64,000 nt of DNA from positions 744,001 to 808,000 of the forward strand of contig NZ_SNUU01000001.1 of assembly GCF_012027645.1 (NCBI RefSeq), given 5' to 3'. Below, piece after piece: positions 32,426 through 35,607 of this stretch. The stretch comes from Thermococcus sp. 18S1. Its GTDB lineage: Archaea > Methanobacteriota_B > Thermococci > Thermococcales > Thermococcaceae. The position numbers and the translations under genes were made by a program. The notes under the pieces were generated by a model, which searched no databases, had not been told where the DNA came from, and saw only the letters and a program-made list of their open reading frames with translations. Numbering within the stretch: position 1 is the stretch's first letter; every line of letters begins with the position of its first letter.

Positions 32426-33616
<1,191 letters not shown>

Positions 33617-33629
33617 TGTTTCTCCGAAA

Positions 33630-33638
33630 TTTTTATCA
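33630..33638 (+). promoter_or_regulatory. TATA box for a leaderless transcript
   Basis: TTTTTATCA centred 28 bases before the ATG at 33662. The mRNA would start at or within a few bases of the start codon and there is no ribosome binding site, so the following gene is probably read from a leaderless message. Confidence 0.5.
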
Positions 33639-33661
33639 ATTTTGACTCCTAAAATTCAGTG

Positions 33662-35287
33662 ATGGGCGTGGGTGGTTATCTGCTCAGGTTCTTCACAGTC
33701 CTGTTCCTTGTGTTTCTGGTAGTGGGTAATCTCACTGCCCCAACTGAATTGACTAGTGATGATGTTCATGTTGATGGTGTCATGGGGGCTTTTTACAAGG
33801 TTGGGAAGTTTTTTGTGGTGCCTTTTGAGAATTTGAAGTACAGGCTTGGTGGGGGAGATAATGCTGGAGAGTTTGAGTTTGATGATTCTAACCTTGAGCC
33901 TGTCCAGACTGTCCAGTCTGGAGTGCCCCCAGGGTATGTTGAGAAGTACTTTAAATTCCAGGGTGAGAAGTACAAGTTTTACAAGCCTTTGAACCCCAAG
34001 AAGTCCCAAGTGAGGGAGGAGTTTGAGTTCAGCAAGGGTTATGATGGGATGTTGGGTTGGAAGGATTTCACTGCTGGTGACCTTGTTGAGGACTTGTACA
34101 GTGAGCCTGTGAATGAGGTGTTTAAACTTTCCCTTGATGCCCTTTATGAGAAGTATGATAAGGAAGACAAGAAGATATTCATTAAGTATCTGAAAATTCA
34201 GGGGGAGTGTCCTAATGGGTGGTGTGAGAGGGTTAATCCAGTTAGTGTTTATGCTCCCTTGTTTCCAATTGTTAGTGTTGCTCAACCCACCCCTGAAGTA
34301 TTAAGGCATGCCCTTGTTGATAATGCAGAGTACTTCATGGAAATTGGTTGGGATACTGACCCAGCACTTCCCTCCAAAGTTATTAAGGCAGAGGCAAGTG
34401 TTGACTGTGATGGTATTGTGCTTTATGATTATGCCTTCCTGTACAGGTTGAATAAACTCATGGGGGTCAAAGCAGAGTATTACAAAGTTGGCTTTCATGG
34501 ATACCTGCCAAATGGGGAGATGAACCCAGTTGGTCATGCTGAACTGTTTGTTTACTACCCAGAGACTGGCAAGTGGGAGGTTTACAGTACAATGGCAGTG
34601 ACAGAGTATTTTTACAAATACACCAGCAGGGACATTGACCTAGAAGCATACAGGGAGTACTCATACACTAGGCAGATAGTTGCAAGGTATATTGAAAAAG
34701 GGTACCCAGTTAGCCTTACACTCTCAGTGATTGTTGTTAAAGATAATGGCAAGATTAAACCCCCAGAACTGTATGTACCAGTTGGCAAACTCCAATTCAA
34801 CAGCTTTGAGGAAGCATTGTACTGGTACTTGTACAGTAATATAATACACAATCATGCCAGTTTGTACACTTTCATCACTGGCAGGAGTGGAGGTTCAACC
34901 CCAGAAGAAAACCTGAAAAAGTTTGAGAATTACAGGGTCATGATATTCCTTCAGAAGCTCCCCACCCCAGAAGACCCCAAAGTGTACAAGGTAATGAACT
35001 GGTATGGAAAAGAAGCCACACTCAACAGGCTCAAAAAAGACTTGGTTAAAAAAGGCCAGTACAGGGAGATAAAGTTTGTTATTAACAAGGGAGAACCTCC
35101 AGAATTCCTCAAGAAGCCAAAACCCTGGCTCAATGAAGACAATGCTCCACCCTGGAGCAAAGAGGATATTATCAGATACAAAAAGTACAAGGAAAAAGCA
35201 AAAAATGAAGACAGTGGAGAAAGCATCATAGACCTCCTAATCAAAGGCTTCAAGAACCTCTTTAAGGGAACTAGATTAGGGGGCTGA
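33662..35287 (+). CDS. CpG-free gene: membrane-anchored transglutaminase-like protein
   Basis: 541 residues. An N-terminal membrane helix or signal (about 6-24) is followed by an external domain. The core VDCDGIVLYDYAFLYRLNK (Cys249), then GHAELFVYYPETGKWEVY (His292), follows the Cys-then-His layout of transglutaminase-like cysteine proteases; the third residue, normally Asp after the Trp, is Ser309 here, so activity is uncertain. A CPNGWC pair (Cys183, Cys188) may form a disulfide. The C terminus is Lys-rich with a short amphipathic end. Codon use differs sharply from neighbours: no CpG occurs in or between codons, T-ending codons dominate the first half and A-ending codons the second. The family is not one I can name; acquisition from elsewhere is inferred. 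Confidence 0.7.
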   Translation: MGVGGYLLRFFTVLFLVFLVVGNLTAPTELTSDDVHVDGVMGAFYKVGKFFVVPFENLKYRLGGGDNAGEFEFDDSNLEPVQTVQSGVPPGYVEKYFKFQGEKYKFYKPLNPKKSQVREEFEFSKGYDGMLGWKDFTAGDLVEDLYSEPVNEVFKLSLDALYEKYDKEDKKIFIKYLKIQGECPNGWCERVNPVSVYAPLFPIVSVAQPTPEVLRHALVDNAEYFMEIGWDTDPALPSKVIKAEASVDCDGIVLYDYAFLYRLNKLMGVKAEYYKVGFHGYLPNGEMNPVGHAELFVYYPETGKWEVYSTMAVTEYFYKYTSRDIDLEAYREYSYTRQIVARYIEKGYPVSLTLSVIVVKDNGKIKPPELYVPVGKLQFNSFEEALYWYLYSNIIHNHASLYTFITGRSGGSTPEENLKKFENYRVMIFLQKLPTPEDPKVYKVMNWYGKEATLNRLKKDLVKKGQYREIKFVINKGEPPEFLKKPKPWLNEDNAPPWSKEDIIRYKKYKEKAKNEDSGESIIDLLIKGFKNLFKGTRLGG

Positions 35288-35470
35288 ACTCCACCCCCTA
35301 ACCATTCTCACAATGGTCAAGTTATTCCTCAAATTGTAACTAACCACTATTACTGAGTACAAGGCTGGGAAGGAGTAAGTGACTATCCTGGTCAGCAAGT
35401 CCTCACTGGTTGGTGTCAAACCCAGGGGGATTATTGCCAGGCTCAGGCTCAGGGTCAGGAGAATGTTTGC
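33669..35470. other. CpG-free island
   Basis: I read every line of this stretch and found no CG dinucleotide in 1,802 bases, on either strand. The last CpG before it is at 33667 and the first after it at 35471, where CCGCGG begins. C and G are both common inside, and TG and CA are frequent. The island covers the transglutaminase-like gene and 183 bases of what follows, so the cause acts on DNA, not on codons of one gene. Confidence 0.9.
35276..35470 (-). pseudogene. 5'-truncated membrane-protein reading frame at the island edge
   Basis: Read on the minus strand from 35470, a stop-free frame gives NILLTLSLSLAIIPLGL, then TPTSEDLLTRIVTYSFPAL, YSVIVVSYNLRNN and ends MVRGWSSAP at a TAA at 35276-35278. 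Two hydrophobic segments are visible. It overlaps the end of the plus-strand gene by 12 bases, the usual convergent arrangement here. There is no start codon: the protein-like part begins exactly where CpG reappears, and the frame continues as arginine- and proline-rich low-likelihood sequence to a stop near 35507. This looks like the 3' end of a gene cut by the island boundary. Confidence 0.4.
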
Positions 35471-35530
35471 CGCGGTGTTTTGGACGCCCCGCCGCGGGAC
35501 ACGTTTTTATATGTCTGTTCTCAACATTCT

Positions 35531-35607
35531 CCGGACGATGACGAGAATGCACCTCCACTGAACCCGGCAGCTGAATGATGAGAAAAAGGGTCCGAGTCCC
35601 AGTCCGG
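35531..35607 (+). ncRNA. Possible box C/D-like small RNA (weak)
   Basis: A strong TATA-like TTTTTATAT at 35503-35511 would start a transcript near 35531. From there CCGGAC (35531-35536) could pair with GTCCGG (35602-35607). Inside are ATGACGA (35538-35544, one mismatch to box C), CTGA (35558-35561) and ATGATGA (35575-35581, a perfect box C'). No good terminal box D is seen (only CCGA at 35592), and the 3' side overlaps an operator of the next gene. It may be just leader sequence, and the same TATA could serve the minus strand. Confidence 0.22.

Follow-up and report, generated by a model that had tools for sequence, protein, structure and literature searches.

The chromosome of Thermococcus sp. 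18S1 contains a segment of 1802 bp that holds not a single CpG dinucleotide. It lies in a 64,000-nucleotide stretch of contig NZ_SNUU01000001.1 (assembly GCF_012027645.1, positions 744,001 to 808,000), which was analysed as a whole and is called the window in the following. We found that this CpG-free island is an insertion, that homologous islands in other Thermococcus genomes are CpG-free as well, that the second of its genes is truncated, and that CpG was excluded while the family diverged. The islands probably stem from a varied, CpG-free pool of mobile DNA among Thermococcus, of which they are fragments and in which CpG is actively excluded; the parent would most likely be a plasmid or virus, an extrachromosomal replicon outside the collections searched. 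Both this parent and the agent of CpG exclusion are what we infer from the features described below.

A CpG-free island in a CpG-rich chromosome

33669 to 35470, no strand: CpG-free island, 0 CpG in 1802 bp, GC content 43.6%

An exact count bears out the preliminary description of this DNA, which had reported zero CpG from 33669 to 35470 and the return of CpG at 35471: the nearest flanking CG dinucleotides stand at 33667-33668 and 35471. The base content of the island (C 18.6%, G 25%) leads to an expectation of 83.9 CpG, within the 80 to 90 estimated earlier for about 20% C and 25% G, and the loss spans both coding and non-coding parts, as had also been noted. TG and CA, which had been called frequent, reach observed/expected (o/e) ratios of 1.29 and 1.33, compared with 0.87 each in the whole window. 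In the rest of the window CpG has an o/e of about 0.94, and the second-longest CpG gap measures 156 bp.

An ordinary low-GC gene that was acquired horizontally and happens to lack CpG would fit the GC content of the island (43.6% vs. 57% in the window), but this explanation is refuted, and we give it virtually no credence. Recoding the protein of gene A, the intact gene of the island, with host codons yielded 110 +/- 6.7 CpG (1000 trials, minimum 90), and the codons of low-GC genes from the same genome still gave 57 +/- 6.4 (2000 trials, never fewer than 33); moreover, 39 kb of low-GC DNA from this genome show a CpG o/e of 0.72, and zero CpG is found in four assemblies. CpG-free runs were sought in sampled stretches, with islands elsewhere in those genomes being possible. 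The longest CpG gap was 229 bp in 400 kb from the window's genome and, in three related genomes sampled over 796 kb, 399 bp; CpG is normal in the host genomes, and the 1.2 Mb sampled from these four genomes held no second gap above 400 bp. Ordinary genes with zero CpG, which the preliminary description had named as potential counter-evidence, did not appear among the 543 genes of the sampled stretches, where the lowest CpG o/e was 0.46. The CpG-free run is thus confirmed as a real anomaly, and chance and an AT-rich origin are excluded because recoding with host or low-GC codons still gives many CpG and the sampled stretches hold no other gap of this kind.

The island is an insertion

32426 to 33616, plus strand: RlmI-like S-adenosylmethionine methyltransferase gene, left flank, normal CpG, syntenic in relatives
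33621 to 35532, no strand: inserted segment, absent at the orthologous sites of genomes G014 (18 bp), G040, G023 and G037 (similarly short)
33624 to 33637, plus strand: putative promoter CCGAAATTTTTATC, similar to a transcription factor B recognition element (BRE) and TATA box, from sequence and alignment
33662 to 35284, plus strand: gene A, 541 amino acids (aa), hydrophobic N-terminal helix and predicted transglutaminase/vasohibin-like core
35297 to 35470, minus strand: C-terminal part of gene B, matching residues 63-124 of a 132-aa protein of genome G029; hydrophobic, membrane-type
35471 to 35532, no strand: CpG-rich junction segment, common to the HyVt-34 copy and absent from empty sites
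35533 to 35597, plus strand: sR43-like C/D box small RNA (sRNA), E value 1.5e-7, score slightly below the gathering threshold

The island is an insertion, because the orthologous site of G014 holds 18 bp in place of window positions 33621-35532; in the host's relatives, the RlmI-like methyltransferase gene is joined nearly directly to the C/D box sRNA. The right edge of the insertion coincides with the 5' end of the sR43-like sRNA. Thermococcus sp. HyVt-34 (G036; L022) has the same insertion, with both junctions alike. These site comparisons support the view that the island is foreign to its chromosomal site. The BRE/TATA-like element lies shortly 5' of the ATG at 33662 and is common to the HyVt-34 copy, and the island consists of the intact gene A followed by 186 bp.

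Homologous islands at three chromosomal sites

When the gene A protein was searched against 94 Thermococcaceae genomes, four true homologues emerged besides that of the window, and three of them (HyVt-34, G026 and G015) are embedded in equally sharp CpG-free islands. The preliminary description had asked whether other CpG-free islands share genes, and these islands do share gene A. Their lengths are 1790 bp in HyVt-34, 2320 bp in G026 and 1817 bp in G015, next to 1802 bp in the window, and the four genomes represent three unrelated chromosomal sites, with those of G026 and G015 differing from that of the window. The G026 island adjoins an sR23 C/D box sRNA, whose 5' end lies at the junction (L023:9223-9278), and has another neighbour that we take to be alaS; the G015 island occupies the third site and carries a frameshifted gene A. 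Sites that are empty or diverged were identified for two of the insertions, those of the window and G026. The fourth homologue, in G029, is a truncated gene A in a stretch of about 2.5 kb with 13 CpG in 2560 bp (o/e 0.16), and this copy is a decayed member of the CpG-free family. Across all islands, TG and CA have o/e ratios of 1.16-1.36.

A comparison of window positions 33700-35466 with HyVt-34 showed blocks of more than 90% identity alternating with blocks below 50%, unlike the flanking genes. This mosaic suggests recombination among different CpG-free alleles.

At two of the three distinct sites (sR43-like and sR23), the 5' end of a C/D box sRNA gene lies within about 2 bp of the insertion, which may reflect a targeting preference or perhaps chance in short intergenic regions. 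An RNA family search at the island edges gave no match for G015 and no convincing match for G029.

CpG was excluded while the family diverged

Substitutions between the window and HyVt-34 were counted over the 1282 bp of the island that can be aligned. None of 84 pyrimidines preceding G and none of 75 purines following C had changed, whereas 44 of 419 other pyrimidine sites and 50 of 529 other purine sites had; in the neighbouring host gene, the same two site classes changed at 17 of 120 and 7 of 134 positions. Movement of TpG/CpA sites towards CpG was hence seen at 0 of 159 sites, while about 10% of the other sites changed, and such sites were equally unchanged in the pairs window-G026, HyVt-34-G026, G026-G015 and G026-G029. 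CpG exclusion was therefore active while the family diverged, because TpG/CpA sites never changed and other sites did. These comparisons rule out that CpG was lost in a single episode and that the islands evolved normally thereafter. The alignable island has diverged by 11.7% and the neighbouring gene by 9.3%, and the differences in the island are rich in transitions (118:32, vs. 58:49 in the host gene).

Gene A, gene B and a larger parent

The gene A protein had no match in Pfam, NCBIfam or PHROGs. Its AlphaFold2 model (predicted template modelling score 0.72) most closely resembles vasohibins (Z 7.2, root-mean-square deviation 4.9 over 171 residues, about 10% identity) and, after these, other transglutaminase-fold proteins; a Foldseek search with the model gave a weak match (E 0.09), and a structure search of viral proteins nothing significant. 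C249 and H292 are invariant across the aligned CpG-free or low-CpG copies and the paralogues, as expected of a catalytic Cys and His in the right order, and the invariant core also includes S309, 17 residues beyond H292. The model is consistent with a transglutaminase-like/vasohibin-like predicted cysteine protease, for which we propose a secreted or membrane-anchored location. A dN/dS ratio (nonsynonymous to synonymous substitution rates) of about 0.16-0.24 between the window and G026 copies indicates that the protein has been under purifying selection.

The paralogues on the chromosome, about 450 aa long and normal in CpG, carry Asp in place of S309. In the mobile family, an invariant Ser thus replaces the catalytic Asp of the paralogues and gives a vasohibin-like Cys-His-Ser set; Ser in the third place of the triad is the vasohibin arrangement. 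The third codon positions of gene A are T-rich in the first half and A-rich in the second, beyond the effect of CpG, a shift that the preliminary description had already recorded.

Gene B, which is convergent to gene A and was detected on these islands alone, is whole in G029 (132 aa, hydrophobic). Just its C-terminal part remains in the window, HyVt-34 and G026; in the window the homology ends at about 35470, exactly where CpG returns, and HyVt-34 is cut at the same place. A plus-strand open reading frame (ORF) at 35379-35561 was rejected as the second gene, since the conserved longer frame is that of gene B on the minus strand. G029 has yet another small ORF, the third, and upstream in G026 lie about 330 bp of CpG-free sequence with a frameshifted small ORF; neither ORF has a significant Pfam match. 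The truncated gene B and the extra ORFs show that the islands are pieces of something larger, which is CpG-free throughout the part seen.

Restriction motifs, codons and methylases

Further short motifs are depleted in the islands. Three independent islands together contain one GATC and two GGNCC, where 12.6 and 15.3 are expected, and the o/e ratios of 0.08 (GATC), 0.13 (GGNCC) and 0 (GGWCC) compare with about 0.5, 0.67 and 0.45 in the hosts, so that depletion exceeds the host level, by a modest excess except for CpG. The loss of GATC is not accompanied by an excess of its deamination products GATT/AATC, and together with the GGNCC/GGWCC depletion this points more to restriction-type selection. 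Sampled Thermococcus chromosomes have o/e ratios of 0.42-0.57 for GATC, 0.40-0.51 for GGWCC and 0.60-0.66 for GANTC.

The codons of the islands show NCA where NCG would stand, and NNT in place of NNC when G follows. Codon likelihoods favour decay over avoidance by a summed +24 log-likelihood (lnL) units with reference genes of the window's genome (G000), and by +3 to +33 depending on the GC content of the reference genes; decay is preferred with GC-rich references, and the two tie at matched GC.

A C5-cytosine methylase was present in 2 of 61 Thermococcus genomes (G000 and G017) and not found in the other 59, including the carriers G015, G026, G029 and the incomplete G036. G000 possesses this methylase, yet has normal CpG elsewhere. 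The methylase gene is followed by an HhH-GPD glycosylase gene (L116:1156-3391; G000:C1:1107189-1108316 and downstream), an arrangement that resembles the methylase/thymine-glycosylase pair of Methanothermobacter. No methylase gene lies within the island fragments. McrC, of the 5-methylcytosine-dependent restriction system McrBC, was detected in 28 of 61 genomes and does not track with the islands: G000, G026 and the incomplete G036 lack McrBC, and G015 and G029 have it. In T. kodakarensis, 5-methylcytosine is below detection and transformation is limited by two McrBC systems (PMC13385129). Methylated CpG DNA would therefore be a liability in this species, which could join selection and methylation as causes.

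A proposed mobile pool and its rivals

We propose that a mobile family carrying gene A, the convergent gene B and further small ORFs would circulate among Thermococcus species, that CpG would be actively excluded while the parent replicates or spreads, and that fragments of this parent would land in chromosomes, twice beside C/D box sRNA genes, where they may recombine with each other. Several points weigh against this proposal. No intact replicon matching the islands was found in phage, plasmid or IMG/VR collections: in IMG/VR neither the gene A protein, its profile, gene B nor a degenerate DNA pattern had a match, and in the plasmid collection neither the island, the gene A protein nor the low-GC regions. 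The fragments contain no integrase, replication or virion genes and no terminal repeats, although a fragment of an integrated plasmid or virus could lack such genes. There is likewise no transposase ORF, nor do the ends carry an inverted repeat, and the right CpG-free edge lies inside gene B, unlike what is expected for the end of an insertion sequence or transposon. The hosts, too, avoid GATC and GGWCC (o/e about 0.4-0.57), and the extra avoidance in the islands is modest. Finally, as the window and HyVt-34 share junctions, part of their divergence may be chromosomal, and the lack of CpG in that part is something a mobile pool would leave unexplained.

These shared junctions, and the failure of 159 sites to gain CpG in an island that diverged about as much as its neighbouring gene, would rather suit an old chromosomal locus, from whose gene family a host process or selection at the DNA, RNA or chromatin level strips CpG in place. 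We regard this as improbable, given three unrelated sites, CpG-free non-coding parts, a transition-rich spectrum unlike that of the adjoining host gene, hypervariable blocks that suggest import from outside, and a decayed G029 copy that has CpG. A stronger rival, if on the whole an unlikely one, is a parent whose CpG was completely methylated, by a C5 methylase of its own or of a donor host, and in which every CpG turned into TpG/CpA and new CpG were lost at once. From general rates, deamination of 5-methylcytosine is accelerated roughly 500-fold between 37 °C and 80-90 °C, and by rough rate arithmetic methylated CpG would decay to essentially zero at 85 °C. The TG/CA excess in all islands, the codon replacements, the transition-rich differences and the slight preference of the codon likelihoods fit such decay, as does the glycosylase gene beside the G000 methylase, which is expected if 5-methylcytosine is mutagenic. 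Decay nevertheless ties with avoidance under GC-matched reference genes, leaves the GATC depletion without its deamination products, and meets a C5 methylase missing from 59 of 61 genomes, carriers among them, as well as from the fragments. The preliminary description had derived the segment from a methylated or restricted replicon; its foreign, CpG-free source is upheld by the empty G014 site, the homologous islands and the active exclusion, whereas methylation and deamination as the cause did not gain the same support. If the mobile pool exists, the likeliest cause, just short of an even chance, is counter-selection of CpG by a nuclease or sensor that targets CpG and is encountered in the course of transfer; next, as a plausible but lesser candidate, comes complete methylation of CpG with subsequent rapid deamination of 5-methylcytosine at about 85 °C.

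Implications and comparison with known systems

A strong force must lie behind the complete disappearance of CpG from both coding and non-coding sequence, which recurs in several genomes and has persisted as the copies diverged, and we know of none named in Archaea that is strong enough to remove a dinucleotide completely. A literature search found no description of CpG-free islands of this kind. It is possible, though somewhat less likely than not, that Thermococcus or its mobile elements hold a CpG-directed agent (nuclease, sensor or methylation system) that forces an element family to zero CpG, which would give Archaea a system that defends the genome, or tells self from non-self, on the basis of CpG. 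If restriction is the cause, this would be a CpG-directed defence of a new kind; if methylation decay is, the islands would be a natural demonstration that hyperthermophile DNA cannot keep 5-methylcytosine, which bears on its rare use there. The islands would mark an unseen mobile element of Thermococcus, and zero CpG is a simple composition signature for finding its rest.

The gene A protein shares with vasohibins the C249-H292-S309 set, the His-Ser spacing of 17 and the best structural match (Z about 7), but has about 10% identity, is archaeal, and possesses an N-terminal hydrophobic helix and extra regions. The Thermococcus barophilus plasmid pTBMP1 is also low-GC extrachromosomal Thermococcus DNA with reduced CpG (o/e 0.57); unlike the islands, it is not CpG-free (longest gap 441 bp), and searches of the plasmid collection in which it is included matched neither the island nor the gene A protein. 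Decay of methylated CpG in vertebrate genomes and in genomes with CpG methylases resembles the islands in CpG loss and TpG/CpA excess, and high temperature would strengthen it, but known cases retain about 20% of their CpG, whereas the islands keep zero and have no CpG methylase linked to them. To our knowledge, no restriction enzyme recognizes just the 2 bp CG. Phages and plasmids that avoid restriction sites are likewise mobile DNA lacking short motifs that host systems cut, and the islands are low in GATC and GGNCC/GGWCC beyond their hosts; the islands differ from them in missing a whole dinucleotide, throughout coding and non-coding sequence.
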